From positions 1-28,701 of IMG/VR virus record IMGVR_UViG_3300032214_000346: a stretch of DNA of 28,701 nucleotides. The stretch is one strand, 5' to 3'. Position 1 is the first letter of the stretch. Every line of letters begins with the position of its first letter. The notes below the pieces were generated by a model, which saw only the letters and a program-made list of their open reading frames with translations, was not told the DNA's origin and searched no databases. The DNA comes from a virus. Positions 321 to 17,332 of this stretch are shown in pieces. Both the position numbers and the translations under genes were made by a program.

Positions 321-927
321 CAACGTGGAACTGAACCCAGGCGCAGGTGGCAGCGTCATCGCGGCCGACGACATCGGCGGCGTGAGCTACCAGCGCGTCA
401 AGGTCGTGCATGGGGCGGACGGCGTGAACGACGGCGACGTCAGCGGCACGAACCCGCTGCCCGTGCTCGCCATGGATCGCGACCGCACCGTGCTTGCCTA
501 CTGGGCGGTGGCAGCGGCGGCAGGCGCGACCGGCGTGGAGACCGCCATCACGCTGTCCCGCTCGAACGCTCCGGGCGCGACGGTGACGACGGGCACGTCC
601 TTCGCCCCGGCCACGGGCAAGCGGTTCAGGCTGACGAGCATCACGGTGGCGACGCGCGGCAACAACACGGCCACGGCGCAGGCGACGACGTTCTCGCTGC
701 GCGTGAACACGGGCGGCGCGGCGACGACGAGCAGCGCGGTGATGCTGGCAGCACGCTCGGCGACACCGGCCACGGCCAACGCATGGGACCGCGTCATCCT
801 GACGTGGAGCGGCGACGGGCCGGAGATCGTCGGCGACGGCACGCTCCAGTTCGGCGTGACCGCAGCGGCAACGTTCACGACCAACGCCCCGACGTGGGAC
901 GTCACCATCACCGGCTACGAATACTGA
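313..927 (+). CDS. Beta-rich phage structural-type protein (unknown)
   Basis: This 204-residue protein starts at ATG 313, not at the earlier in-frame ATG at 37, because the region from 37 to 312 is already coded in another frame by the preceding gene. The N-terminal part (ADDIGGVSYQRVKVVHGADG, residues about 16-35, then a GDVSGTNPLPV stretch) is a pattern common in phage proteins of unknown function. From about residue 60 the protein is rich in Ala, Thr, Gly and Val with alternating hydrophobic residues, and it ends in TWDVTITGYEY, consistent with a beta-sandwich. No signal peptide or transmembrane segment is seen. Its stop overlaps the next start (TGATG). It could be a capsid decoration or tail accessory protein, which is inferred from composition and context only. 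Confidence 0.7.
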   Translation: MADNVELNPGAGGSVIAADDIGGVSYQRVKVVHGADGVNDGDVSGTNPLPVLAMDRDRTVLAYWAVAAAAGATGVETAITLSRSNAPGATVTTGTSFAPATGKRFRLTSITVATRGNNTATAQATTFSLRVNTGGAATTSSAVMLAARSATPATANAWDRVILTWSGDGPEIVGDGTLQFGVTAAATFTTNAPTWDVTITGYEY

Positions 928-1124
928 TGCGCACCACGATCCTCTGCCTGCTTCTCGCTTCCTGTGCAACCCAACCTGCACCAAAGCACTGCCCGATCCT
1001 GCACAAGCCCGCCGATGCCACGGTCCCGACTCGCACGCTGGACGGCGAGGTCGTTGGCTTCTGCTGCACTGGCTGCCTTGGCAAGTGGGATCGGATGACG
1101 CCAGCGCAGAGGCGCGCGCTGTAG
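927..1124 (+). CDS. Small lipoprotein with YHS/TRASH-like cysteine motif
   Basis: This 65-residue protein starts at ATG 927, overlapping the previous stop. Residues 2-12 form a short signal sequence (RTTILCLLLAS) followed by the lipobox L-A-S-C with the lipidated Cys at position 13, so the mature protein should be anchored in a membrane. The remaining 50 residues carry C22-P-I-L and then GEVVGFCCTGC (Cys46, Cys47 and Cys50). That spacing is typical of YHS/TRASH-type metal-binding modules, which bind transition metals such as copper. Small lipoproteins next to terminase genes can be outer-membrane spanins (T7 gene 18.7 lies just before terL), but the sequence is not proline-rich like most Rz1 proteins and no partner i-spanin is visible. 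Function is unknown; lipoprotein status is fairly secure. Confidence 0.7.
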   Translation: MRTTILCLLLASCATQPAPKHCPILHKPADATVPTRTLDGEVVGFCCTGCLGKWDRMTPAQRRAL

Positions 1125-1125
1125 C

Positions 1126-1449
1126 ATGCTCCTGACCACGCTCGCAGGCTGGCCCGCCAAGCCCGCTCCAGGCTCGCTGGATCTCGCGGTCCTCAAGGGC
1201 TACCTATCGTCGACCACGCGCGAGAAGCTCGAAGCAGTGGACGGCTGGCCCTCCCTGGACACGGCGTGGCAGGAAGCGGTGGTCGCGGCAGCGAACTATG
1301 TCTGGCTGCTGATCGACGAGATCGAGAGTGCGACACCGGCAACGCCCGAGCCAGCACCGAAGCGAACGCAACCGCTGAAGGACGTGAGGCGAGGCGAGGC
1401 ACCGAAGAGCACGCGCGACACGAGGCGGCAGGCGAAGGGCTACCGATGA
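1126..1449 (+). CDS. Hypothetical protein, candidate small terminase subunit
   Basis: This 107-residue protein begins one base after the lipoprotein stop and overlaps the large-terminase start by four bases (ATGA at 1446-1449), a classic coupling arrangement. The N-terminal two thirds is predicted to be helical (a run around LKGYLSSTTREKLEAVD, and another around AWQEAVVAAANYVWLLIDEIE). The C-terminal third is Arg/Lys/Pro-rich and probably disordered. Position directly before terL and the size fit a small terminase subunit, but I see no recognisable helix-turn-helix, so the assignment rests on context alone. Confidence 0.6.
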   Translation: MLLTTLAGWPAKPAPGSLDLAVLKGYLSSTTREKLEAVDGWPSLDTAWQEAVVAAANYVWLLIDEIESATPATPEPAPKRTQPLKDVRRGEAPKSTRDTRRQAKGYR

Positions 1450-2993
1450 GGATCGAGCCCGAGGTGCTGGCTGCGATGACGCCGGAGGAGCGCGCCGAGT
1501 TGGACCGGCTGCTCGCTGAGACGCCGCCATGGTCCCCGCTGCCTGGACCGCAGACGCAGGCACTGGAGTCGACCGCGACGGTCGTGGGCTACGGTGGCGC
1601 AGCAGGTGGTGGCAAGACCGACCTCGCCGTTGGGCTGGCCGTGACGAGGCACCGACGGGTGGGCATCTTCCGCCAGAACGGCACCGAGTTGATCGGCATC
1701 GTCGACCGACTGGCTGACGTGATCGGCAACCGCGATGGCTGGAACGGAGCCGACCGCATCTGGCGCATGAAGCGGTGGGATCGGGTGCCGGTTCAGATCG
1801 AGTTGGGGTCGTTCCCTTCGCCCGACGAGGAGCGCAAGTATCAGGGCCGACCGCACGACCTGCTCGTGTTCGACGAGGCGTCCAACATGCGCGAGTCAGC
1901 TGTGCGCTTCCTTATGGGCTGGCTGCGAACGACCGAGCAAGGGCAGCGGTGCCGCGTCGTGATGACGTTCAACCCGCCGACGACGGTCGAAGGCAGGTGG
2001 GTGGTGCGCTACTTCGCACCGTGGCTGGACAAGAAGCACCCGCGACCGGCCAAGCCGGGGGAAGTGCGATGGTTCGCGACGCTGGACGGCGAGGACGTCG
2101 AGGTCGACAGCGGCGAGCCGTTCACGGTGGGGGCGGACCAGATCATCCCGCAGAGCCGAACGTTCATCCCCAGCAGGGTGACCGACAACCCCTACCTGCT
2201 CAACACGGGCTACATGGCGCAGCTGCAATCGCTGCCCGAGCCGCTGCGGTCGCAGATGCTGCATGGCGACTTCCATGCTGGCGTGCAGGACGACCCGTGG
2301 CAGGTGATCCCGACGGCGTGGGTCGAGGCAGCGCAGGCGCGGTGGAAGCCGATGGACAAGAAGCCGCCGATGGACAGCATGGGCGTCGACGTCGCGCGCG
2401 GTGGCAAGGACGAGACCATCATCGCGCGCAGGCACGGCATGTGGTTCGACGAGCCGCTGGCCTACCCTGGCAAGGAGACGCCGGACGGGCCAACGGTGGC
2501 TGGGCTGGTCATCGCAGCATCACGCGACCGAGCACCGATCCACATCGACGTCATCGGCGTGGGCGCGAGCCCCTACGACTTCCTGAACGAGGCGCAGCAG
2601 CAGGTGCTGGGCGTGAACGTCGCCGAGGCGGCGCGTGGTGTCGACAAGTCGGGCAGGCTTAAGTTCAAGAACCTGCGGTCGGAACTGTGGTGGCGCATGC
2701 GCGAGGCTCTCGACCCAACCGCCAACAACGCCATCGCACTGCCGCCGAGCCCTCGCTTGCTGGCTGACCTGACGAGCCCGACGTGGCGACTGTCCGGCGC
2801 GACGATCCAGGTCGACAGCCGCGAGGACATCTACGCACGACTGGGCAGGTCGCCGGACTACGCGTCGGCCTTCTGCCTTGCACTGATCGACACGCCGAAG
2901 GAGAGCGTCGTGAACAGGCTCTACGGAAGGCGAACCCGAAACGAATACGACCCCTACGACCCGAAGACGCTGCGCAGCAGCTGGAGCAACTAA
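1446..2993 (+). CDS. terL: Terminase large subunit (DNA packaging ATPase-nuclease)
   Basis: This 515-residue protein pumps phage DNA into the procapsid and cuts it at the end of packaging. The start at ATG 1446 is chosen because it overlaps the preceding stop; an open stretch back to 1266 is coded in another frame. The ATPase domain has a Walker A motif GAAGGGKT at residues 51-58, Walker B LLVFDEAS at 139-146, and a coupling motif TFN at 174-176. The C-terminal RNase H-like nuclease shows GVDVARGGKDE with the first catalytic Asp at 315, IHIDVIGVG with Asp369, and SPDYASAF with Asp471. All key residues are present and the length is normal for the family. It should dock on the portal encoded at 4121. 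Confidence 0.97.
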   Translation: MRIEPEVLAAMTPEERAELDRLLAETPPWSPLPGPQTQALESTATVVGYGGAAGGGKTDLAVGLAVTRHRRVGIFRQNGTELIGIVDRLADVIGNRDGWNGADRIWRMKRWDRVPVQIELGSFPSPDEERKYQGRPHDLLVFDEASNMRESAVRFLMGWLRTTEQGQRCRVVMTFNPPTTVEGRWVVRYFAPWLDKKHPRPAKPGEVRWFATLDGEDVEVDSGEPFTVGADQIIPQSRTFIPSRVTDNPYLLNTGYMAQLQSLPEPLRSQMLHGDFHAGVQDDPWQVIPTAWVEAAQARWKPMDKKPPMDSMGVDVARGGKDETIIARRHGMWFDEPLAYPGKETPDGPTVAGLVIAASRDRAPIHIDVIGVGASPYDFLNEAQQQVLGVNVAEAARGVDKSGRLKFKNLRSELWWRMREALDPTANNAIALPPSPRLLADLTSPTWRLSGATIQVDSREDIYARLGRSPDYASAFCLALIDTPKESVVNRLYGRRTRNEYDPYDPKTLRSSWSN

Positions 2994-4120: not shown

Positions 4121-5815
4121 GTGGACTACACCGGCACCCCCAAGAAGCGCAGCGACCTGCTGACCCGATGGGGGCAGCTGAAGAGTGAACGTGCGTCGTG
4201 GTGGATGCACTGGAAGGAGATCAGCGACTACCTGCTCCCACGCAGCGGACGCTTCTTCGTGCAGGACCGCAATCGCGGCACGAAGAGACACAACCTGATC
4301 TACGACAACACTGGCACGCGCGCGCTTCGCGTGTGCGAGTCCGGCTTGATGGCTGGAGCGACGAGTCCTGCGCGCCCGTGGTTCCGACTCGCGACAGCAG
4401 ACCCTGACCTCAACAAGTTCTATCCGGTCAAGCTCTGGCTCGATGACGTCACGCGGCGCATGCAGTCGGTGTTCGCGCGAAGCAACACCTACCGCGCGTT
4501 GCACCAGATCTACGGCGAGTTGGCTGCGTTCGGCACGTCGGTCTCGCTGGTGATGCCCGACTTCCAGAACGTCATCCACCACCACCCGCTGACGGTCGGC
4601 GAGTATTGCATCGCTGCGGACTACAAGGGCCACGTCGACTGCATCTACCGCGAGTTCGAGATGACCGTGGCACAGATGGTCAAGGAGTTCGGCATCGAGA
4701 ACTGCTCGACGCAGGTGCAGGAACAGTGGCGTCGCGGCAACCTCGACATCTGGATCACCGTCATCCACGCCATCGAGCCGCGCGAGGATCGAGACCAGAG
4801 CAAGCTGGACGACATGAACATGCCGTTCCGGTCGTGCTACTTCGAGATCGGCGCAGACCACAACAAGTATCTCCGCGAGTCCGGCTTCCGCCGGTTCCCT
4901 GCGCTGGTGCCTAGGTGGTCGACTGCCGGAGGCGACATCTACGGCATGAGCCCAGGCATGGAGTGCCTTGGCGACGTGAAGCAGTTGCAGCACGAACAGC
5001 TGCGCAAGGCTCAAGCCATCGACCTTCAGACGAAGCCGCCGCTGCAAGCACCAACGAGCGCGAAGAACCGCGACCTGGAGATGCTTCCTGGCGGCGTGTC
5101 CTTCGTCGATTCGTCGGGTCCGAACAGCGGCATTCGCACAGCGTTCGAGGTCAACCTCAACCTGTCCTACCTGTTGCAGGACATCGGCGACTGCCGGCAG
5201 CGCATCAACTCCGCGTTCTACGCGGACCTGTTCTTGATGCTTGCGAACAACGCGAACAACCCGCGCATGACTGCTACCGAAGTTGCCGAGAGGCACGAGG
5301 AGAAGCTGCTCATGCTGGGTCCAGTTCTGGAACGTTTGCACAACGAGCTCCTCGATCCGCTGATCGACATCACGTTCGAGCACATGATGCAGTCGGGCCA
5401 AGTCCCTCCGCCTCCGCCGGAGTTGTCGGGTCAGGATCTGTCGGTCGAGTTCGTGAGCATGCTTGCGCAAGCGCAGCGTGCAATCGGCACCAACTCCTTC
5501 GACCGCTTCGTGGGAAGCCTTGGCGTCGTTGCGCAGATGAAGCCCGAGGTGCTCGACAAGTTCGACCCTGACGTGTGGGCCGACGCTTACGGCGACATGC
5601 TCGGCATCGACCCGAAGCTCATCCTCGCAACCGAGGACGTCGTGCAGATCCGTCAAGCTCGCGAAGCCGCGATGGCTGCGAAGGAGCAGACTGCTGCCAT
5701 GGAGCAGGGGACCAAGGCAATGGGCAACCTGCGTGGCACTCCGATGAACGCCGCAGCATCTGACGTGATGGGGATGTTCAGCGGTTACAACTCACCTTCA
5801 CCACAGATGCTGTAG
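4121..5815 (+). CDS. Portal (head-tail connector) protein, T7 type
   Basis: This 564-residue protein forms the dodecameric channel at the unique capsid vertex, used for DNA packaging and ejection and for tail attachment. It begins with GTG at 4121, two bases after the previous stop. The N-terminal region has the family hallmarks: the helix WWMHWKEISDYLLPRSGRF (about residues 27-45), the segment LIYDNTGTRALRVCESGLMAG, and TSPARPWFRL at 81-90. The sequence ends in a charged and Gln/Met-rich helical barrel region typical of podovirus connectors. Length matches the T7 gp8-like family. It lies downstream of terL as expected. A long open frame on the opposite strand here is a codon-bias shadow. Confidence 0.95.
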   Translation: MDYTGTPKKRSDLLTRWGQLKSERASWWMHWKEISDYLLPRSGRFFVQDRNRGTKRHNLIYDNTGTRALRVCESGLMAGATSPARPWFRLATADPDLNKFYPVKLWLDDVTRRMQSVFARSNTYRALHQIYGELAAFGTSVSLVMPDFQNVIHHHPLTVGEYCIAADYKGHVDCIYREFEMTVAQMVKEFGIENCSTQVQEQWRRGNLDIWITVIHAIEPREDRDQSKLDDMNMPFRSCYFEIGADHNKYLRESGFRRFPALVPRWSTAGGDIYGMSPGMECLGDVKQLQHEQLRKAQAIDLQTKPPLQAPTSAKNRDLEMLPGGVSFVDSSGPNSGIRTAFEVNLNLSYLLQDIGDCRQRINSAFYADLFLMLANNANNPRMTATEVAERHEEKLLMLGPVLERLHNELLDPLIDITFEHMMQSGQVPPPPPELSGQDLSVEFVSMLAQAQRAIGTNSFDRFVGSLGVVAQMKPEVLDKFDPDVWADAYGDMLGIDPKLILATEDVVQIRQAREAAMAAKEQTAAMEQGTKAMGNLRGTPMNAAASDVMGMFSGYNSPSPQML

Positions 5816-5823: not shown

Positions 5824-6240
5824 ATGGTCGTAGCAACTTGGGCTGAACTTGCTGGTCGCACCGATATCTACGAGACGGCTTACGAGACAGCTAACGGAGC
5901 GACGCTGGGGTTCCTTACCAACGGCGACACCACGCTGTGGCTTGAACTAAAGCGTCCGTGCGCGATTCGATGGTCTATTCTCGCAAACAACACCTGGACG
6001 GCTGGCAACATCTTGATGTTTGCAAGCAACCAGAACGTGACCACCTTTGACAACGAAGGTGTGATCGTTGCATCGCCAGCTCCTGTGGTAAACGGGCTTG
6101 CCACACCAGGAGCTTTTCAGTTCAGCCATACCGCGACGGGTGAGTTGATCGTCCCACATCGCTACTTAGCTGTGTATTGGGGTGCCGCTACTCCGATTGG
6201 GAAGGTCAGCGTCAGCATCCACCACAAGGTTTCTGGTTGA
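5824..6240 (+). CDS. Hypothetical 138-residue beta-rich protein
   Basis: The protein has no family I recognise. It is rich in Thr, Ala, Val and aromatic residues, with many alternating hydrophobic stretches and no signal peptide, membrane segment or coiled coil, so it is probably an all-beta fold. The ending RYLAVYWGAATPIGKVSVSIHHKVSG looks like the closing strands of a small sandwich. A strong ribosome binding site suggests high expression, which would suit a decoration or fibre-attachment protein. Its stop overlaps the ATG of the next gene by one base (TGATG), so the two form a coupled pair inserted between portal and Bbp19-like genes. By eye its codons are less GC-ending than those of the terminase gene. 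Confidence 0.7.
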   Translation: MVVATWAELAGRTDIYETAYETANGATLGFLTNGDTTLWLELKRPCAIRWSILANNTWTAGNILMFASNQNVTTFDNEGVIVASPAPVVNGLATPGAFQFSHTATGELIVPHRYLAVYWGAATPIGKVSVSIHHKVSG

Positions 6241-8132
6241 TGCACGTCACCATCGATAACGTCTCCGCGCACCCAGCTACGTCCTGGGTGTTCTGCGGCA
6301 TCCCGAAGCAGCGCATGCCGCAGCCCTACGGCTGGATGACGGATGGCGTCTATCGATACCCCTACGCTGTGGATTCTTCCGAGCGTGGGATCCGCGTGCT
6401 AGCGACTGTTCCTGCACGCAAGTCGATCAAGCTGGAGTTCTTGCCCGACGAGCGAAAGCGCGAGGAGTTTCAGTGGCATGCTGCGCTGACTCGCGACATC
6501 GACTCCGTCGTGCCCAAGTTCTACATGGGCGGCATCGCCGGACAGATGGCTTTGGTCAGCATGGTTGGTGGCGATGCATCTGCCACCTTCCACATGCGCC
6601 ACTGGTTCGCGGACAAGCTGGTCACGGTCGACGTGTGGTGCACCGTCTACAGCGGCCTTGCATCAGTCGACTTCGTTGCGCACGCGACCTACGGGACCAC
6701 GGAGAACAATGGGCAGGCGCAGTCGGTGTTGTTGCCGGCCTTGACGATGGCGTGCGGGTTGCCCGTATCGGTCGACTTTGCCGTGCGGAACGGGCATTCT
6801 GTTGGTGCAATCGGCGGGCAATCGGTTGTCAATGTTACAACCGACAACCAGCGGTGGCATCGCGCCTCGACGTTCGAGATCCGAGGGGCGATCCACGCTG
6901 CGCCTAACCTCGCGCGCGCGAGCGGCTACCAGATGTTCGGCCTGTTCTCGCACTGGGATGGTGCGTGGATGGCTCTCGGCCGAGTCCCTGCGGCTACGCA
7001 GCAGGCGCAGGCACTTCGTGTGCAGCAGCACACCTCTTACACGCAGCAGCAGTTCGTCGGCTACGCAGCCACGCGCCCGCGCTGCCAGCCGCGCGAGAGC
7101 GGCACGACCGGAGAGCAACCGGACTTCGGAGCAGCATCAGATCTCGCGGTCACGATGCAGATGCCGTGGGAGATCCACGATGCCCTGTGGCAATGCCAAG
7201 GCTACGTCCAGCGTCCGGTAAACAACCGCGAACGCGACGCTTCGCCGATGAAGGCTGTCAACCACCCGCAGGCCGAAACGCTCAACCAGCGTCCCGACCT
7301 GTCGTTTGGTTTGCAGGACCGTCTTGGTTGGCCTGGGCAGAACGCCATTGCGTGGATTCCGTCGATCAACACCGTCCTGTGGACGACGGCGGACGACCAG
7401 CACAGGTCGGACAACTTCATGCATGCGACGATTGCACTGACCGCCGACCCTGCGTTGGAGGAGTTGGTGCGTTCTCACGTCGAGCTCGACAAGACCGACG
7501 TGCACATCAAGCGCAGCCTGAACCAGTCGCCGCGAGCGGTGGGTCGTCTGGCCTTGGCGCGAGCCAACCAGATGTGGCTCGGGCTCGCTGACGACTCGGT
7601 GCTGGTCATCGGGATCGAAACCGCGCTTCGGTTCGCATCCATGGCAGCCCTTCCTCAAGGGAAGCCGGTGCGGATCTTCGGTGGCTACGAGCAGGCCAAA
7701 TACGGATGGATCAGTTCGCAGGGCCAACCAGTAATCGGCTGGCAGCCGTGGCAGGAGACCATCGCAGCGATTGGCGTCATGGCTGCTTCGAGGCAGTTGT
7801 TTGCCGCCAACAGCGATGGGCTGGCAGCCAAATACCACGACATCGCGACTTCGCTGGCGCAGGTCATCGACACCAACGCATGGCAGCGGATTGCGCAGCC
7901 GGCAGGCACGTCGAGCGAGTCCTGGTTTCATGCTTACGCGATCCGGTGGAACAGCGGCGACGCGTTCTCCCTGGCCGATTGGCCGCCGCTGCAAAGCTAC
8001 AACGAGGTGTGGAACGACAACGTCTACGTCTCGACGGCTTGCCTCCCGTGGACGCGAGCCGCAAGCGTGATGCTCGACATGTTCTCGCCGCTACCGAGAA
8101 CGCCGGCAGAAGCCCGCTGGTGGGCGATCTGA
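6240..8132 (+). CDS. Large unknown protein, possibly polysaccharide-interacting
   Basis: This 630-residue protein starts at the ATG overlapping the preceding stop; the earlier in-frame ATG at 6177 lies inside the upstream gene. I cannot name its family with confidence. The first 220 residues look beta-rich with many Trp and Tyr (for example RHWFADKLVTVDVWCTVYSG at 120-139). Residues 390-450 (DNFMHATIALTADPALEELV, then LALARANQMWLGLA) and 485-545 (YGWISSQGQPVIGWQPWQET and the helices after it) look helical, like an alpha/alpha toroid. A beta-rich front half with an alpha/alpha back half is seen in exo-rhamnogalacturonan-lyase-like and other carbohydrate-active proteins, but no catalytic motif is recognised, so this is a weak fold guess. 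No signal peptide is present. It may be a virion surface or tail enzyme. Confidence 0.75.
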   Translation: MHVTIDNVSAHPATSWVFCGIPKQRMPQPYGWMTDGVYRYPYAVDSSERGIRVLATVPARKSIKLEFLPDERKREEFQWHAALTRDIDSVVPKFYMGGIAGQMALVSMVGGDASATFHMRHWFADKLVTVDVWCTVYSGLASVDFVAHATYGTTENNGQAQSVLLPALTMACGLPVSVDFAVRNGHSVGAIGGQSVVNVTTDNQRWHRASTFEIRGAIHAAPNLARASGYQMFGLFSHWDGAWMALGRVPAATQQAQALRVQQHTSYTQQQFVGYAATRPRCQPRESGTTGEQPDFGAASDLAVTMQMPWEIHDALWQCQGYVQRPVNNRERDASPMKAVNHPQAETLNQRPDLSFGLQDRLGWPGQNAIAWIPSINTVLWTTADDQHRSDNFMHATIALTADPALEELVRSHVELDKTDVHIKRSLNQSPRAVGRLALARANQMWLGLADDSVLVIGIETALRFASMAALPQGKPVRIFGGYEQAKYGWISSQGQPVIGWQPWQETIAAIGVMAASRQLFAANSDGLAAKYHDIATSLAQVIDTNAWQRIAQPAGTSSESWFHAYAIRWNSGDAFSLADWPPLQSYNEVWNDNVYVSTACLPWTRAASVMLDMFSPLPRTPAEARWWAI

Positions 8133-9085: not shown

Positions 9086-10111
9086 ATGGCAACTCTTGCA
9101 GCGAACAATCTGACGCTGACTGACTGGACGAAGCGCATTGATCCAGACGGCAACGTCCCGGTCATCGGCGAGCTCCTCTCGCAGACCAACGAGATCCTGA
9201 CCGACTGTGTCTGGCGTGAGGGTAACCTCCCGACGGGCGAGCGCGTCGTGGTCCGCACGGGTCTTCCCGACGTCTACTTCCGTTCCCTGAACCAGGGCAT
9301 CCCGAACAGCAAGTCGCAGACTGCCCAGGTCGACGAAGGCTGTGCGATTCTCGAAGCGCGTTCTGAGGTCGACAAGGATCTCGCGATGCTCAACGGCAAC
9401 ACGGCCCAGTTCCGTTTGTCGGAGGACACCGCGTTCCTTGAGTCGATGAACCAGACGATGGCGCAGACGCTGTTCAACGGCGATCCGTCGACGGACCCCA
9501 AGCGGTTCCTCGGCCTGCGTTATCGCTACAACAGCCCGAGTGCTGGCAACGGCGAGAACATCTTCCGCGTGGAAGCGTCGCCGACCAACAGCAACGCGAC
9601 CACGTCGGTCTACCTCGTTTGCTGGGGCGACAACACTGTCTACGGGATTTTCCCGAAGGGCAGCAAGGCCGGCCTTGTGCACGAAGATCTCGGCGAGCAG
9701 ACGGTCTACAACGGCGACCTGCGCATGCAGGCCCTGAGCACGCGCTACCAGTGGAAGTGCGGTCTCGTCGTCAAGGACTGGAGGTATGTGGTCCGCATTT
9801 GCAACATCGACACGGTCGACTTGACCGGTCTTGCCGACATTGCTGGTGGCGTGACGACCTACAAGAACATCATCCACCAGATGATCCAGGCCATCTACAA
9901 GCTGCCGACGATGACGGCTGGCAGTTGCGCGTTCTACATGAACCGCACCGTGCACGCCGCGATGTCGCGCATCGCGATGGAGAAGTCGCTCGGCGTGATG
10001 AACATCGAGCAGGGCGTGACGCAGTTCGGCAAGCCGCACTCGTTCCTTTCGTTCATGGGCGTTCCGCTGCGTAAGTGCGACGCCATCCTCAACACCGAAG
10101 TCGCCATCTGA
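9086..10111 (+). CDS. Major capsid protein, BPP-1/podovirus HK97-fold type
   Basis: This 341-residue protein forms the capsid shell. It is recognised by length, position after the scaffold and before a cement protein, and by family segments such as the N-terminal LTLTDWTKRIDPDGNVPVIG, DNTVYGIFPKGSKAGL (residues 182-197) followed by VHEDLGEQ, and the late YMNRTVHAAMSRIAMEK. No N-terminal cleaved delta domain is apparent; the scaffold is a separate gene. AGGTG six bases before the ATG is the ribosome binding site. The stop is followed at once by a very strong ribosome binding site for the cement protein gene. Confidence 0.93.
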   Translation: MATLAANNLTLTDWTKRIDPDGNVPVIGELLSQTNEILTDCVWREGNLPTGERVVVRTGLPDVYFRSLNQGIPNSKSQTAQVDEGCAILEARSEVDKDLAMLNGNTAQFRLSEDTAFLESMNQTMAQTLFNGDPSTDPKRFLGLRYRYNSPSAGNGENIFRVEASPTNSNATTSVYLVCWGDNTVYGIFPKGSKAGLVHEDLGEQTVYNGDLRMQALSTRYQWKCGLVVKDWRYVVRICNIDTVDLTGLADIAGGVTTYKNIIHQMIQAIYKLPTMTAGSCAFYMNRTVHAAMSRIAMEKSLGVMNIEQGVTQFGKPHSFLSFMGVPLRKCDAILNTEVAI

Positions 10112-10126: not shown

Positions 10127-10654
10127 ATGATCGTCGATACCCTCAACACTCTTACGTCGCCTTCCGTTGCGTCGGCGGCTACTTACTACAGCACGGATCA
10201 CATTGATCTGATGCCCGTCAGCGCAACCTCTGCCAACTCGACGCGCACCACCAACGCGCAAGTCGATCTTGGCGAAGGCCAGCAGCTGTATGCCATCGTG
10301 ACGGTCACGACGGCGTTTACGGGCGGAACGAACTACACGTTTCAGGTCATCAGCGGAACGACCGGTGTCAACGGCGGCACGACTGCTCCTAGCAATGCCG
10401 TTGTGCATGGGACGACCGCAGCGATTGCCCAGGCCACCCTTACCGTTGGTCGTCAGCTTGTGATCCCGATCTCTCCGTTGCAGCTGATCGATGGAGCTTT
10501 CGGCAACACGACTGGCTTCCATCGCTACTTGGCGTTTGCCGTTGTCGCTACCGGTGGAACCCCGTCTGCTGGCGTGGCGCAAGCCACCATCACGTTGCAG
10601 GCAGCTGACGGTAAGACGTTCTACAAGAGCGGCTTCACGGTGGCGTCGCTGTGA
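10127..10654 (+). CDS. Bbp16-like capsid cement protein
   Basis: This 175-residue protein lies directly after the major capsid gene, where BPP-1 encodes its cement protein Bbp16. Family features are the N-terminal MIVDTLNTLTSPSVASAATY, then STDHIDLMP (residues about 22-30), the GEGQQLYAIVTVTTAF strand pair and the TNYTFQVIS strand, all consistent with a jellyroll-type fold that clamps neighbouring capsid proteins from outside. Thr, Ala and Val are abundant, and there is no signal peptide or membrane segment. Its stop overlaps the GTG start of the next small gene. Confidence 0.85.
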   Translation: MIVDTLNTLTSPSVASAATYYSTDHIDLMPVSATSANSTRTTNAQVDLGEGQQLYAIVTVTTAFTGGTNYTFQVISGTTGVNGGTTAPSNAVVHGTTAAIAQATLTVGRQLVIPISPLQLIDGAFGNTTGFHRYLAFAVVATGGTPSAGVAQATITLQAADGKTFYKSGFTVASL

Positions 10655-10842
10655 CCAAGGTCAAGGCTCGCATGCTTTGCTGGGCAGCCGGTGGACTCCG
10701 GCTGCCCGGAGACGTGTTCGATATGGATGGGCAACTGCCGATTCAGGTCGAACTCGTCGCAGAGCAGAAGCCGGCGCAGCCGGTTGATGTCGAGTCCAAG
10801 AAGCAGCCGAAGCCGCGCCTTGCGGCTCCGGCTCCCCAGTAG
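10651..10842 (+). CDS. Small hypothetical protein after the capsid genes
   Basis: This 63-residue protein starts with GTG at 10651, sharing bases with the preceding stop (GTGA). Residues 1-37 (KVKARMLCWAAGGLRLPGDV, then FDMDGQLPIQVELV) look like a short beta hairpin domain. The C-terminal 26 residues are Pro, Ala, Gln and Lys-rich and likely flexible. Similar small proteins sit between cement and tail genes in related podoviruses, but no function is known to me. Coupled translation with the cement gene is likely. Confidence 0.6.
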   Translation: MTKVKARMLCWAAGGLRLPGDVFDMDGQLPIQVELVAEQKPAQPVDVESKKQPKPRLAAPAPQ

Positions 10843-10902: not shown

Positions 10903-12990
10903 ATGTCGAACATCGACATCATCCAGCCGGACCGGAACGGCAACTTCTTCACGAACTACGACAGCCTGGACATGTCGGCCAACCCGTCGCGGGTTGGTTA
11001 CTTTGCGGAAGGCTGGAACAACGATCCGCAGGAAACCGATCCGACTGTTGCTTGGCCTGGGATCGAGTTTTGGACTGGGACTATTGGGTCTGGTCCGTTT
11101 GCCATCACGGCGACATGGGGGTTCCCTACACGATTCAAGGCGACGCATTGTTCGCTGATCCCAAAGGGACGGAACAAGGGAAGGCTGTTGCTGTGGAACA
11201 CGTTGCCCGTCATCGCACGCACGCCAGACGTTGATGGGAAAGCATGGTGGTCGTGGCAAGCGTTGGTCATTCTCGACACTGATCCAAACGCAGCCATCCG
11301 CAGCCGAAACTACCTGTTGCCAATCGGCCCTGTGCGAATCGATGGTGCCACTGAGTGGTATCCGTCCTTGTTTTGCGCCGGCCACTGCTGGACCGACAAC
11401 GGTGATCTTCTCATCGCAGGTGGCAACGAATACGAACGGGACAACTTCTTGTTCGGTGCTTACCAAGGGCTGTGGATGTGGAATCCAGACCTTGATGGTT
11501 CGATCTACTACCGGAACAACACCGGAACGAACTACACACATGCCTGGAACACGACGTCGCACAAGCACTACTTCGACGTAGGTGCCTGGGTCCGCGCGGA
11601 GGACATGCACTTCAAGCGGTGGTATCCGACTCCGAAGCTAACGCAGAAGTTCGCTACGGCCGCAAGCTCGCCATGGAATGGAGCGCGATGCGGGGTGCTG
11701 ATTTTTGGCGGTCAGAACAACATGCAAAGCGACCAACCGTCGCAGAACCCTGCATGGAACAACTACGAAGCTGTAGCCGTTACCGCTTCGCCAACGATCA
11801 ACACTAGCGGTCTTACGTTTGACCTTCGCGGGCCAACGATCCCCAAGGTGTTTGCAGGTCCAGGCACACCAGGAGCAGGAGTGCCTGCCTATCTAGACGA
11901 CTGGCTATTCTTCTACCCACACATGCACCTGCTGTCGAACGGTGGCATGTTCATGTCGGGGATGGCGTGGAAGTCGGCAACGCTGGCCAACCACGGGACC
12001 AACCCTGGAGTGTGGACGAACACAATCGGAGCCACGTCGCAGGTCGGACTGCTCAACCTTGAGCGAGTCTACTCGATGGCGGTTCTCGGTCCGAACCATG
12101 ACGGGATCGCCGACCGAGTTATTCGTGCCGGAGGTTACCACTTCCGGGGCGTTCCAGCGACACCACTGGTGTCATCGACTACTGGGACTGTCGAGGTCAT
12201 CGACGCAACCACGGCAGCTGCGCAGTGGGTAGCGATGCCAGCGATGAATCTTGCGCGCACAGAAGCCAACCTTGTCATCACCCCAGACGCGGACCTTTAC
12301 CTGTTTGGTGGGGCCGAGAAGGAAGCCGACAACGGTGCTGTCCCACCGACGTTTGGCGGGCAATACCACACCAAGACCGAACTGCTTCGGCATGACGGAT
12401 CAGGATGGGGAAACGCGTGGGAGTTGTTGTCGTGGTCCCCGGCTGAAGCGTTTCACGACTACCACAGCACAGCCGTTTTGATGCCGAACGGGCGGATCTT
12501 CGTTGGAGGTGGTGATGCCTCAACGCAGACAGTTACGGAAAATCATCCTTCGCACGTTCACAACCCGAGCGCATCAGACCACCCTGGATACGACTACGAA
12601 ATGTGGTCGCCGCGCTACCTGCGTCCGAACCCCGATCCGCACGTCGTGTTTCGGCGTCCTCAAAACGTGGTTCTGTCTGGTGGAGGAGCGACGCAGGATG
12701 CAGACGACACCTACGTCGTCTCGCGCGCAACGACCTACACGCTGACGTGTGACGCGTTGACCCAATACCGCAGCATCGCGCACTGCGTGCTGATGGCTCC
12801 GAGCTCGGTCACGCACCATGTCGACTTCTGCCAACGCTACTACAAGCCGGTGACGCAGACGTTGGTCAGCACTGTGTCGATGACGTTCGAGTTGCCGGCA
12901 AGCGATAGCGCACTACCCGACGGCTACTACATGCTGTTCGTCATCGACGATCTTGGCGTCCCCTCCGAAGCGATCTGGGTGAGGATCTAA
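10903..12990 (+). CDS. Copper radical oxidase (galactose/glyoxal oxidase type, AA5-like)
   Basis: This 695-residue protein resembles galactose oxidase and glyoxal oxidase, which oxidise primary alcohols or aldehydes to aldehydes or acids and reduce O2 to H2O2, using one copper and a Tyr-Cys cross-linked radical. A kelch-type propeller shows repeated strands ending in GG (GDLLIAGGN 167-175, GVLIFGGQN 264-272, DLYLFGGAE 464-472, GRIFVGGGD 530-538). The expected active site is complete: Cys158 (SLFCAGHCWTD), Tyr241 in RWYPTPKL, Tyr520-His521 in HDYHSTAVLMPNGR, and His638 in VTHHVDFCQR. The C-terminal DUF1929-type domain runs from about 580 and ends GYYMLFVIDDLGVPSEAIWV. No signal peptide is present, so delivery by the virion or by lysis is likely. 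It sits between capsid and tail genes; the ribosome binding site is weak. Substrate is unknown. Confidence 0.88.
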   Translation: MSNIDIIQPDRNGNFFTNYDSLDMSANPSRVGYFAEGWNNDPQETDPTVAWPGIEFWTGTIGSGPFAITATWGFPTRFKATHCSLIPKGRNKGRLLLWNTLPVIARTPDVDGKAWWSWQALVILDTDPNAAIRSRNYLLPIGPVRIDGATEWYPSLFCAGHCWTDNGDLLIAGGNEYERDNFLFGAYQGLWMWNPDLDGSIYYRNNTGTNYTHAWNTTSHKHYFDVGAWVRAEDMHFKRWYPTPKLTQKFATAASSPWNGARCGVLIFGGQNNMQSDQPSQNPAWNNYEAVAVTASPTINTSGLTFDLRGPTIPKVFAGPGTPGAGVPAYLDDWLFFYPHMHLLSNGGMFMSGMAWKSATLANHGTNPGVWTNTIGATSQVGLLNLERVYSMAVLGPNHDGIADRVIRAGGYHFRGVPATPLVSSTTGTVEVIDATTAAAQWVAMPAMNLARTEANLVITPDADLYLFGGAEKEADNGAVPPTFGGQYHTKTELLRHDGSGWGNAWELLSWSPAEAFHDYHSTAVLMPNGRIFVGGGDASTQTVTENHPSHVHNPSASDHPGYDYEMWSPRYLRPNPDPHVVFRRPQNVVLSGGGATQDADDTYVVSRATTYTLTCDALTQYRSIAHCVLMAPSSVTHHVDFCQRYYKPVTQTLVSTVSMTFELPASDSALPDGYYMLFVIDDLGVPSEAIWVRI

Positions 12991-12992
12991 CC

Positions 12993-14012
12993 ATGCCAGT
13001 CCTGAGCATCTGTCCGGCCAGCTTCGATATCTTCATCCACCAGGGTGACGAGAACCCGTGGACGATCACGGTTCGTGGCGACGACAAGGAGCCGCTAGAT
13101 GTGACCGGCTACACGTTTTCTCTAGATGTCGATCAGCTGGAGAACCCGCCGGATCTGACCAGCCAGGAGTTCCAACTAACCGGAACGGTTACAAACGGGC
13201 CTGCCGGCATCGTGGAGTTCGAGCTCGACAGCGTTCAGTCGGCTACTGTCCTTGGTCGCTACTACTACACGTTGCACGCAATCGACACGATTGGGCGCAA
13301 CCTAGTCCTGGCGAAGGGCCGGTGGCTGTTCGTCGACAGCTGCGAGACGAACAAGGTGTCGGACATCGACATCTGCAACATGGCCCTGAGCTTCATCGGC
13401 GACCAAGCCAGGATCACTAGCATCAACCCTCCCGACGCGAGCGTGCAGGCCGAACTGTGCAGCAAGTTCTACCCGATGGCGTTGCGGTCGACGCTTGAGA
13501 TGCACAACTGGGCGTTCTCGACGCGTCGGGCAGAACTGACGCTGGTCGATCTCGAACACATCGAAGAGCACGCAACGCACACCCACGCGTGGGGGACGCA
13601 CTGCGACTGCGCGGAGTGGGAGTATTTCTACGAGCTTCCGCGCCACTTCCTCAAGGCTGTTGCGGTATTGCCGGCGGACAGCGTAGACGACTATCTGCAA
13701 TCGCAGGACTTCTCGGTGCAGCTGGACTCGCTTGGCGTGCCGCGCCTCTACACCGACTGCGAGGAAGCTGTGCTGGTCTACACGGAATACTCGGTCGAGA
13801 CGCACCTGTTCCCTCCGCTGTTCCAGATGGCGGTGGCATGGCACCTAGCCAGCATGCTCGCGGGCGCGATCCTGAAGGGCGATGCCGGCGCGAACGAGAG
13901 CAAGCGGTGCATTCAGATGTCCTCGATGTATGCCGCGAAGGCGACGTCGTCGGATTCGTCGGTGCGACGTGTGCACCCTGAACATCAGGCTTCTTGGATC
14001 ACGGCACGCTGA
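12993..14012 (+). CDS. BppU-like domain fused to tail tubular protein A
   Basis: This 339-residue protein joins two parts. Residues 12-115 look like the Ig-like N-terminal domain of BppU-type tail proteins (FDIFIHQGDENPWTITVRG, then DVTGYTFSLDV), which bind other tail or baseplate parts. Residues 122-339 are a T7 gp11-type tail tubular protein A (DIDICNMALSFIGDQARI at 124-141, then YPMALRSTLEMHNWAFSTRR), which forms the adaptor ring under the portal. Between ELT (181-183) and EYFYELP lies an unusual His/Cys cluster (His193, His196, His198, His203, Cys204, Cys206). GAGG at 12981 serves as ribosome binding site. The fusion implies that the adaptor ring also holds an outer component. Confidence 0.9.
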   Translation: MPVLSICPASFDIFIHQGDENPWTITVRGDDKEPLDVTGYTFSLDVDQLENPPDLTSQEFQLTGTVTNGPAGIVEFELDSVQSATVLGRYYYTLHAIDTIGRNLVLAKGRWLFVDSCETNKVSDIDICNMALSFIGDQARITSINPPDASVQAELCSKFYPMALRSTLEMHNWAFSTRRAELTLVDLEHIEEHATHTHAWGTHCDCAEWEYFYELPRHFLKAVAVLPADSVDDYLQSQDFSVQLDSLGVPRLYTDCEEAVLVYTEYSVETHLFPPLFQMAVAWHLASMLAGAILKGDAGANESKRCIQMSSMYAAKATSSDSSVRRVHPEHQASWITAR

Positions 14013-14014
14013 AC

Positions 14015-17000
14015 ATGCCCAACACGCGCATCTACAACCGAGCGTTCAACGGTGGTGAGATCGCTCCCGACATGTTCGGGCGCATCGACGACGCTCGCTA
14101 CCAAGCCGGCGCGGCTGAACTGCGCAACATGATCGCGCTGCCGCACGGCCCTGCGGCTCGCCGTCCTGGGATGCAATACGTTGCCAACACGAAGAACAAC
14201 GGCGTGGCGCGGCTGATCCCGTTCTCGGCATCGGTGGACGATAGCCTGATTCTCGAAATGGGTGCAGGCTACATTCGTCTGCACGACAACGGGGCACCTG
14301 TAGCGTCTGGGCAGCTTCCGTGGCAACTCTATCGTGCCTTCCCAACCGACTCTGGCGTGTCGGCGTCTGGCCCTACGGGATACGAAGTGTTTATCTCGTG
14401 GCCGAGCAACGTCCTGACAAACGGTGAGCCGGTCACCATTCCCTACAAGGCTTTTGGTGTAACCTGGGGCGGTGGAGGTCTGACGCAACCGACGATCACG
14501 CAGTTGCCGGATGCGCGTTACGATGCCACTGGCGGTGGCGTTGGTGGGTATACCGAGCCTCTCAAGGTCGACGTCGTCTACTACGTTCGGAACAGGTCGG
14601 CGAGCGGGTTCAACATCTCGCTAACTCCAGACGGTCCGCTTGTGCAACTAGTCAATCCAGTTGCTGGCGTCACTTGGTCGAATGCCTACATGGCGCGCGT
14701 CTACCGGCCAGGAGACATCGCGACATACTTGGGCTTTGTCTACTACTGCAAGGTCGAACACGCTGCTCTAGTTAGCCCGTTTGGCGACACTGTTCGGTGG
14801 TCTGTGATACCAGGGACTGTCTACGAGATCCCAACTCCATACGGTGTTGGGGACGTGTTCGACATCCACTACACGCAAAGCAACGACGTCCTGACGCTCG
14901 TGCACCCTTTGCACCCTGTGCAGGAGCTGCGGCGATACGCGTCTACCCGTTGGGAACTGAAAGCCGTTTCCTTTTCTGCCGTGGTAAGCGCACCTAGCGT
15001 GGTCGTGGCGACGCCTACTTATGGCGAAGCTGTAGAGATCAATGCGACGTTCACTGGAACAAAGGCAGCAACCACGACAGTTGCGCACAACTTCCTTGCT
15101 GGAGATCCCGTCTACATCTCAGGGATCTCGACTCAGCTAGCTGACGGGTTCTATACCGTCTACAAGGTCGACTCAGCACAGCCAACTTACCTGCACCTCA
15201 CCGCATACGCTGGCGGCCCAGAGGTGTTTGCTACGGTTGCCGCATCTTCGCTAACCGGAAAGGTCCAATACTCAGACCAGCTTACGGATTTGGACACGGT
15301 CTACGCCGTGACGTCTACGTCCGCTGATGGGGTGGAGTCCGAGATCGGGAGCAAGATCACGGTCAAAAACATTCTTGCCATTGCTGGAGCATCAAACAAG
15401 CTCATCTGGAAAGGAGTTAGCGGTGCTCTTCGATACACGGTCTACAAGCAACAGAACGGTCTGCTTGGATATCTTGCGTTGGTGGAGGCGTCTTCTGCAC
15501 AGCAGAACGTAGTAGCACAGTTCAACTCTCCAACGCCAGGGAACGGCATCACCATCATCAAGACCGATCATGGTCTAGAGACGGGCACGGCAATCACGGT
15601 GTCGCCTTTGGCTGGGCAGGACAACCCATCTGTGTTCCCGACTACCGTGAACACTAGTGCCATTTACTACGTCAAGGTTCTGGCTACGAACACGTTCACG
15701 TTTAGCGCAACACCTGGAGGGGCTGACATCCTTGACACCGTCAACCCAGCGAGCCCTTTGCCGATTACCTATTCGGTGGCGTATTCGGTGGTCGACGACA
15801 ACATCGCTCCAGACTTAGGTCAGACCCCTCCTCTTCGCGATGCTACCGACCTGAATGCTGCCGATGGGTATCCAGCATCCGTTGCATACTTCGAGCAGCG
15901 TCGCTGCTTCTCTGGGAGCAACTCGGAGCCGCAGACGATCTACATGACGCGCAGCGGAACGGAGTCGGACTTGTCCTACACGTTTCCGAGCCAGGACACG
16001 GATCGAATCAAGTTCCGCGTTGCCGCACGAGAGCGAAACCGTGTGCGACATCTGTTGCCGCTTGGCAACCTTGTGATGTTGACGAACACCAGCGAATGGC
16101 GCGTCACTTCGGTAAACACGGACGTGATGACTCCGACGTCGATCAGCGTCCGGCCCCAGAGCTACATCGGGGCGAACAACGTCCAGCCGGCGATCATCAA
16201 CGCGACGGTGCTGTTCTGCGCAGAGCGAGGCGGGCACGTTCGCGAGCTCGGATACGACGGCAACATACAAGGCTTTCGCACTGGCGACATGAGCCTAAGA
16301 GCTACGCACTTGTTCGATCAATACGAGTTGGTCGACCTGTCCTACAGCAAGGCTCCCTACCCAGTTGCATGGTTCGTCAGCACGTCTGGCAAGTTGCTTG
16401 GGATGACTTACGTCCCCGAGGAGCAAGTAGGGTCGTGGCATCAGCACGACACAAGCGGAACGTTTGAGTCTGTGTGCGCCATCCCAGAAGGCGAAGAAGA
16501 CCGCGTCTACGTCGTAGTCAAGCGCACGGTCAACGGGAGCACGCGCAGGTTTGTCGAGCGCATGGCAAAAATGGAGTTCACGGCTCTAGAAGACTGCCAG
16601 TTCCTTGATGCGTTCTGGGCCTTCGACGGGCGCAACACCACCGCGACGACCATGACCGTCACGCCGACTGGAAGCTGGGCAAGTGGCGCGTCCAAGACGG
16701 TGACGGCTAGCACCTCGACGTTCGTTGCCGGTGATGTTGGCAGCGAGATCCGATGGACGATCAACGGCGTAAACTACGGAGTGCTCATCACAGCCTTCGC
16801 GAGCGGGACATCGGTGACTGGGACGCTCCTAGCGGCATGGCCGGCAGCGTTGCAGAACACGCCTCGTGCCGACTGGTCGTGGGCCAGGAGCTCGTTCACG
16901 GTCGCGCATCTTCCCAGCACAGCTGTCCAGGTCTTCGGTGACGGGCGAGTGCAGGCTGGAGCAACCGCTTCTGCCGGCGGCGTCGTCACCATAGCCGAGC

Positions 17001-17332
17001 GACTGGTGCGTGGATGCATCGGCCTTGGCTACACGAGCAAGCTGGTCACGCTGCCCGTGATGATGCAGATCGACGGCTTCGGCCAGGGACGGACGAAGAA
17101 CGTCTGCAACACCTGGGTCAAGCTCTACCGAAGTGCCGGCGTGCGCATCGGCCCGAGCGATACGGAGTCGCACGTCCTCGACCAACACAACAAGACTGAC
17201 CTGCGCACCGAAGAGGTGCAGATGCTTGTGTCACCAACGTGGCAACGCACTGGTCAGATCTACGTCACGCAGCAGACAGCCCTACCGCTCACGGTTCTGG
17301 GCATGACCATCGAAACCAGCATCGGAGGCTAA
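14015..17332 (+). CDS. Tail tubular protein B with extra adhesin-like modules
   Basis: This 1,105-residue protein is the tail nozzle (T7 gp12 type). ATG 14015 is chosen over GTG 13994 because it opens with the family start MPNTRIYNRAFNGGEIAP; GPAARRPGMQYV at 45-56 is also typical. It is longer than ordinary family members because of inserts. Residues 225-275 (RPGDIATYLGFVYYCKVEHA, then W and YEIP) resemble a carbohydrate-binding CBM5/12-like pattern. Residues 350-410 and 510-575 are HGL/HNF-x-x-G-D-type modules followed by YYV or FYTV strands, as in E1-FCCH-like phage domains. Residues 423-495 form a fibronectin-like module (GVESEIGS, then RYTVYKQQNGLLGYLALVE). Residues 876-945 are the usual TTPB beta insert (SWASGASKTVTASTSTFVAG). 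No strong ribosome binding site is present. Confidence 0.93.
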   Translation: MPNTRIYNRAFNGGEIAPDMFGRIDDARYQAGAAELRNMIALPHGPAARRPGMQYVANTKNNGVARLIPFSASVDDSLILEMGAGYIRLHDNGAPVASGQLPWQLYRAFPTDSGVSASGPTGYEVFISWPSNVLTNGEPVTIPYKAFGVTWGGGGLTQPTITQLPDARYDATGGGVGGYTEPLKVDVVYYVRNRSASGFNISLTPDGPLVQLVNPVAGVTWSNAYMARVYRPGDIATYLGFVYYCKVEHAALVSPFGDTVRWSVIPGTVYEIPTPYGVGDVFDIHYTQSNDVLTLVHPLHPVQELRRYASTRWELKAVSFSAVVSAPSVVVATPTYGEAVEINATFTGTKAATTTVAHNFLAGDPVYISGISTQLADGFYTVYKVDSAQPTYLHLTAYAGGPEVFATVAASSLTGKVQYSDQLTDLDTVYAVTSTSADGVESEIGSKITVKNILAIAGASNKLIWKGVSGALRYTVYKQQNGLLGYLALVEASSAQQNVVAQFNSPTPGNGITIIKTDHGLETGTAITVSPLAGQDNPSVFPTTVNTSAIYYVKVLATNTFTFSATPGGADILDTVNPASPLPITYSVAYSVVDDNIAPDLGQTPPLRDATDLNAADGYPASVAYFEQRRCFSGSNSEPQTIYMTRSGTESDLSYTFPSQDTDRIKFRVAARERNRVRHLLPLGNLVMLTNTSEWRVTSVNTDVMTPTSISVRPQSYIGANNVQPAIINATVLFCAERGGHVRELGYDGNIQGFRTGDMSLRATHLFDQYELVDLSYSKAPYPVAWFVSTSGKLLGMTYVPEEQVGSWHQHDTSGTFESVCAIPEGEEDRVYVVVKRTVNGSTRRFVERMAKMEFTALEDCQFLDAFWAFDGRNTTATTMTVTPTGSWASGASKTVTASTSTFVAGDVGSEIRWTINGVNYGVLITAFASGTSVTGTLLAAWPAALQNTPRADWSWARSSFTVAHLPSTAVQVFGDGRVQAGATASAGGVVTIAERLVRGCIGLGYTSKLVTLPVMMQIDGFGQGRTKNVCNTWVKLYRSAGVRIGPSDTESHVLDQHNKTDLRTEEVQMLVSPTWQRTGQIYVTQQTALPLTVLGMTIETSIGG

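Follow-up and report, generated by a model that had tools for sequence, protein, structure and literature searches.

An AA5-type copper radical oxidase gene in the structural gene cluster of BPP-1-like podoviruses

The stretch of DNA analysed here (the window) comprises 28,701 nucleotides (28.7 kb) and comes from IMG/VR, where it is virus record IMGVR_UViG_3300032214_000346. Its gene order matches that of Bordetella phage BPP-1 and runs from terminase, portal, protease/scaffold and major capsid protein (MCP) through a Bbp16-like cement protein and a gene in the bbp15 position to bbp14- and bbp13-like tail proteins and internal virion proteins (Table 1). The window phage is a short-tailed podovirus of the BPP-1/Epsilon15 type. 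Indeed, the order terminase-portal-protease-MCP-cement-bbp15-bbp14-bbp13 is common to the window, BPP-1 (Rauchvirus) and Limnohabitans phage DC33, with portals that are 65-70% identical, although neither BPP-1 nor DC33 has the oxidase gene or the tail-protein extension described below. Since DC33 is among the nearest isolates by capsid protein (67.5%), a freshwater Burkholderiales host is a reasonable guess, offered as such and not as a result. The database record of DC33 (PQ492659.1) gives its taxonomy as Inoviridae, yet its gene content is that of a BPP-1-like podovirus.

Inside this structural cluster, with the bbp15-like gene on one side and the bbp14-like gene on the other, lies a gene for an AA5-type copper radical oxidase (CRO). 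The placement of such a gene between capsid and tail genes, put forward in a preliminary description of the DNA, is borne out by Pfam and PHROG matches and by synteny.

Table 1. Features of the window, and of related contigs where named, with the basis of each assignment
Feature	Position	Strand	Basis
Cys-rich YHS/TRASH-like lipoprotein, 65 aa, lipobox LASC	927..1124	+	alignment; Pfam below cut-off
Terminase large subunit	1446..2993	+	phrog_979 8.9e-38 on ORF 1266-2993; ATG at 1446
Portal (head-to-tail connector)	4121..5815	+	Pfam PF12236 1.6e-186
Orphan protein, 630 aa, between portal and protease genes	6240..8132	+	comparison of loci
Major capsid protein (MCP), Epsilon15 gp7 / Bbp17 type	9086..10111	+	Pfam PF20911 4.5e-115
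Cement/decoration protein, Bbp16-like	10127..10654	+	Pfam PF21190 2.3e-7
Small bbp15-position gene, directly upstream of CRO	10651..10842	+	synteny
AA5-type copper radical oxidase (CRO), 695 aa	10903..12990	+	Pfam, PDB phmmer, GlxA profile, AlphaFold model + Foldseek
CRO: phage-specific N-terminal segment, residues 1-65, motif NND....DP...WPG.E.WTG.IG	10903..11097	+	alignment
CRO: Cys158, predicted thioether cross-link (GlxA C121 / galactose oxidase C228)	11374..11376	+	PDB match, alignment
CRO: Trp240-Tyr241, predicted stacking Trp and radical Tyr (galactose oxidase Y272)	11620..11625	+	PDB match, alignment
CRO: Tyr520-His521, predicted axial Tyr and Cu ligand (Y495/H496)	12460..12465	+	PDB match, alignment
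CRO: C-terminal GO-like E-set domain, residues 606-695	12718..12987	+	Pfam PF09118 3.4e-17
CRO: His638, predicted Cu ligand (H581)	12814..12816	+	PDB match, alignment
bbp14-like tail/neck protein with extra N-terminal domain of ~115 aa	12993..14012	+	profile match, comparison of relatives
Tail protein, bbp13-like	13994..17332	+	phrog_376 4.1e-174
Additional genes of clade-2 phages	L107:8674-9896, L180:6875-7989, L104:7054-8297, L105:8273-9411, L196:4743-5986		

The same description held that the protein is more than a kelch-repeat relative and ends in an oxidase-type domain, and both views stand: by fold match and conserved cofactor residues it is an AA5 copper radical oxidase. Pfam recognises the C-terminal galactose-oxidase E-set domain alone (GO-like_E_set, 3.4e-17), PHROG profiles give no direct match for the protein, and phmmer against the PDB places both galactose oxidase and GlxA at about 1e-11. 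The NCBIfam GlxA profile (NF052501) scores 8e-26 and 90.4 bits, short of its curated cut-off of 800, and the protein is therefore not a GlxA orthologue. Its AlphaFold2 model is of moderate confidence (pLDDT 74.4, pTM 0.84; low at residues 1-51), an earlier run without the clade 2 sequences having been weaker (pLDDT 64.7). When this model is compared with the PDB by Foldseek, the first 27 matches are all AA5 enzymes (1.4e-25 to 1e-19), with GlxA at 1.4e-25 and galactose oxidase at 1e-24 as the best; below them come one dynein chain at 6e-10 and then ordinary kelch propellers at 2e-8. No viral predicted structure comes near the model, the best lying at 1.3e-8. At the level of the whole fold, as judged by Foldseek and Pfam, the protein is predicted to combine a seven-bladed kelch-type propeller with a C-terminal E-set domain.

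Within this fold the Cys-Tyr pair, the axial Tyr and the two His ligands of AA5 enzymes occur in order. All five residues named at the outset are in place, in the settings C158 (SLFCAGH), W240-Y241 (KRWYPTP), Y520-H521 (HDYHSTAVLMPNG) and H638 (VTHHVDF); across a 46-sequence alignment C158, Y241, Y520, H521 and H638 are invariant and W240 is nearly so. Absence of the copper ligands from close phage homologues would have told against the assignment, and all of them are retained in homologues at 95, 81, 51 and 49% identity. The absence of a signal peptide is likewise confirmed, in that the highest 12-residue Kyte-Doolittle average in the N-terminal region is 0.87 (residue 59). The conclusion that the gene encodes an AA5-type copper radical oxidase with a complete conserved site holds, and from sequence and model the enzyme is predicted to be catalytically intact.

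With GlxA of Streptomyces lividans (4unm, NF052501) the window CRO shares the fold, the Cys-Tyr pair in its FC.GH and RWYP motifs, the axial YH, the final His and the C-terminal E-set domain, at about 17-18% identity when the structure alignment is taken as a whole. It differs from GlxA-type enzymes in having no signal peptide, in its phage-specific N terminus and in its place in a phage structural operon. The N-terminal segment of residues 1-65 is kept among phage CROs and missing from cellular CROs. The propeller, E-set domain and cofactor residues are also common to Fusarium galactose oxidase (1gof, AA5_2), at about 17% identity, a comparison in which the substrate residues cannot be matched from sequence. 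No N-terminal CBM-like domain of the galactose oxidase type was found in the window CRO, and W240 adjoins the radical Tyr as it does in GlxA, unlike the arrangement in the Fusarium enzyme.

Relatives of the phage mostly lack the gene. Among 63 contigs with a related capsid protein and a downstream tail gene (the L105 row of this set being a mis-pairing), 58 have a capsid-tail gap of about 700-1250 bp and no oxidase. In other words, the CRO is encoded by an accessory gene that has been inserted at one constant position. It is borne by the window and a near-identical record, by the group G002-G004 (95%), by G005 (81%), by L107 and L180/G007 (46-51%), and by L104, L105, L125 and L196, the contigs of which stop inside the start of the CRO. 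The tested CRO-bearing phages form a single clade in the MCP tree (support 100/99), on which ground the idea that they acquired the CRO module several times was rejected. In a CRO tree of bacterial and phage sequences only, the enzymes of the BPP-1-like phages again form a single clade (100/100), on a stem of 1.88 substitutions per site; the clade thereby supplies copper radical oxidases far removed from the characterised ones. The closest cellular proteins to the window CRO are about 31% identical at most, and a search of 399 Burkholderiales genomes, to which no weight is given for want of a positive control, gave no close CRO relative at E <= 1e-30.

Within the clade, CRO divergence reaches 46% identity. 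The ratios dN/dS are nevertheless about 0.05, 0.11 and 0.13 (0.0265/0.567, 0.135/1.187 and 0.305/2.28), the last two near silent-site saturation, and such values, at 0.05-0.13 despite this divergence, indicate purifying selection. The simplest history is one acquisition by the ancestor of the clade, followed by retention under selection. A 150-aa ORF lies between the bbp15-like and bbp14-like genes of two CRO-minus relatives (L123:2078-2530 and L162:2065-2517); the bbp15-bbp14 interval may be a general site for accessory genes.

The enzyme class is itself well known. To describe it as mainly fungal and actinobacterial, as had been done at first, is too narrow, there being at least 500 bacterial loci across many phyla. 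It is the phage setting which appears to be new. Neither an AA5 enzyme (tblastn with the CROs of clades 1 and 2) nor the CRO N-terminal segment (tblastn) finds a match in 50,697 phage records, and a myxobacterial CRO query meets in them just a partial kelch match in Myxococcus phage Mx1. In the open-licence papers searched no description of an AA5 enzyme in a phage particle was found, nor was a glycan-oxidising ability of this kind found reported for any cultured phage. A galactose-oxidase KO is listed among the auxiliary metabolic gene (AMG) hits of Lake Baikal viral metatranscriptomes (PMC9611531), and a paper on Pseudomonas phage D6 names one ORF galactose oxidase without detail; the active site is given in neither.

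A second phage oxidase came to light in L018 (7699-10458) and L019 (7702-10461). The AA5-type protein encoded there has 919 aa, appears to carry a signal peptide, includes fn3 domains and retains the full set of five cofactor residues. The phage is T4-like by its UvsX/RecA-like and topoisomerase genes. Its CRO branches apart from the window CRO in the CRO tree, which suggests two or more separate entries of such enzymes into phages. A GH16 reading of the gene adjoining the T4-like CRO was dropped, as there is no Pfam match.

Other features of the locus accompany the oxidase. The bbp14-like protein has 335-345 aa in CRO-bearing phages vs 222-241 aa in their CRO-minus relatives, the extension being present in every CRO-bearing locus that covers the gene and in 0/60 CRO-minus loci. 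A likeness of the extension to BppU_N was seen by eye only, Pfam giving nothing, and was set aside. Because it is the adjoining tail protein that is modified in the same clade, an association of the CRO with the virion becomes likelier. The orphan protein is restricted to the CRO-bearing clade among the loci examined, is about 50% identical across it and has no Pfam, PHROG or PDB match; its many invariant W, H, R and D residues lend it an enzyme-like look. Clade-2 phages have two additional genes behind the cement gene, one of which matches Bbp16 while the other is similar by eye, so that the CRO is preceded by what look, in part by eye, like decoration proteins in tandem. G005 (L188:1-11497) has a large internal virion protein which, as read, is 3832 aa long and exceeds most phage proteins in size.

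In the Cys-rich lipoprotein the invariant cysteines, C22, C46, C47 and C50, lie in the motifs CPIL and GFCC.GC, such that the conserved cluster C-P-I-L ... F-C-C-x-G-C is present; Pfam YHS/TRASH matches stay below the gathering threshold, at best 20.8 bits vs 30.3 (L107), and the window copy matches TRASH only, at 0.0082. A scan of 2.9 million IMG/VR viral contigs found the protein in six, all of them CRO-bearing, with its gene directly upstream of the CRO in L104, L105, L107 and L196 and upstream of the terminase in the window and G005. It is present in most, not all, members of the clade, being cleanly missing from CRO-bearing G004 and not found in CRO-bearing G007 (L180), and it occurs in 0/21 relatives without a known CRO, searched as whole records. 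A Fisher test of lipoprotein against CRO (p = 2e-4) ignores relatedness and is not relied on. Necessarily, since the tail extension, the orphan protein and the lipoprotein all trace to one clade, they amount to a single association and not to independent ones.

GlxA of Streptomyces requires copper and the chaperone Sco for maturation of its Tyr-Cys cofactor, and in some Burkholderia galactose-oxidase-like genes adjoin sco genes (PMC4736821); in CopR, a TRASH domain senses copper (PMC7830388). By analogy, the phage lipoprotein may deliver copper to the CRO. The likeness to the Sco/ECuC system of GlxA is that a copper-related extracytoplasmic protein is genetically linked to a CRO (PMC4736821); the small YHS/TRASH-like lipoprotein of the window is, however, unrelated to Sco/ECuC and phage-encoded, and its copper role is putative.

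The substrates of AA5 enzymes are primary alcohols or aldehydes, and their oxidation yields H2O2 (PMC11267884). The reading preferred here, to which we give a probability of roughly 0.58, is of an active AA5 oxidase, acquired once, borne on the particle, loaded with copper outside the cytoplasm and oxidising host surface glycans. The CRO would be made late and not exported, and its phage-specific N-terminal segment would attach it to the particle. The neck or tail is the likeliest site, and the N-terminal extension of the bbp14-like protein is a possible mount. Copper loading would occur upon release or at the cell surface, outside the cytoplasm, helped in most members by the Cys-rich lipoprotein. 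Primary alcohols or aldehydes of the host capsule, O-antigen or exopolysaccharide would then be converted into aldehydes or acids with formation of H2O2, and the benefit may lie in adsorption, in penetration of the glycan layer or in the exclusion of competitors. Counting against this reading are the moderate model, the lipoprotein gaps in G004 and G007, the sub-threshold Pfam scores of the lipoprotein, the descent of all associated traits from one clade and the RWYA of clade 2. Moreover, the lipoprotein is predicted to be exported and the CRO is not, which means that any transfer would have to await lysis or the encounter with a new cell; this mismatch is a real difficulty for the proposed copper delivery. 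The fuller picture, in which the virion carries a neck- or tail-borne AA5 oxidase together with its own copper-delivery lipoprotein and oxidises surface glycans rather than cleaving them, is more tentative. As for the interpretation in the preliminary description, its CRO fold, full conserved site, phage origin, structural cluster and lack of a signal peptide stand, and virion carriage and attack on surface sugars are kept as conditional.

The alternative that survives best, though we consider it unlikely, is an active oxidase that works outside the virion, building up in the cytoplasm, being released by lysis, taking up external copper and modifying glycans or generating H2O2 in the surroundings of the lysed cell. 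Cytoplasmic copper is scarce, the CRO has no signal peptide, and an exported lipoprotein would meet it at lysis, all of which suit this alternative; the position of the gene between cement and tail genes and its association with the extended tail protein do not. Improbable by comparison is a kelch/E-set protein that has lost its catalytic activity and now serves the virion as a structural or glycan-binding component. Beta-propellers often act as binding modules, and RWYA replaces RWYP in clade 2, but none of the five cofactor residues varies, either at 46-51% identity or in the 46-sequence alignment, and the T4-like phage enzyme has RWYA too. Less probable again is an auxiliary metabolic enzyme that works inside the infected cell on metabolites of the host, since the gene lies in the structural cluster, copper and O2 would be needed and H2O2 is toxic; the characterised CRO relatives, moreover, are exported. 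In its favour are the lack of a signal peptide and the galactose-oxidase KO among the Lake Baikal viral AMG hits (PMC9611531). An assembly artefact joining a bacterial gene to a phage contig can be set aside, for although every CRO-bearing member is a metagenomic contig, gene, site and flanks are the same in many contigs from several samples, the MCP and CRO phylogenies are coherent, the N terminus is phage-specific and the nearest cellular proteins are about 31% identical at most.

Phage depolymerases, lyases and deacetylases attack surface glycans hydrolytically or by elimination, and we know of no virion with radical copper chemistry that modifies a receptor or barrier. If linked to the virion, the oxidase would breach or mark glycans by another kind of chemistry, one that yields H2O2 as a by-product and requires a viral protein to be loaded with copper. 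Together with relatives in which the site is empty, the tail-protein extension and the lipoprotein, the CRO clade makes a clean comparative system.

Three further loci, L015-L017, were set aside as CRO phages; their DNA seems to come from bacteria or mobile elements and to encode exported enzymes, and L016 has VirB4-like conjugation genes. On a Gloeothece plasmid (L012:2602-7542) a cellular gene of galactose-oxidase-like type has a Dyp-type peroxidase gene in its vicinity, a pair that recalls GlxA and DtpA, which are functionally linked in Streptomyces.
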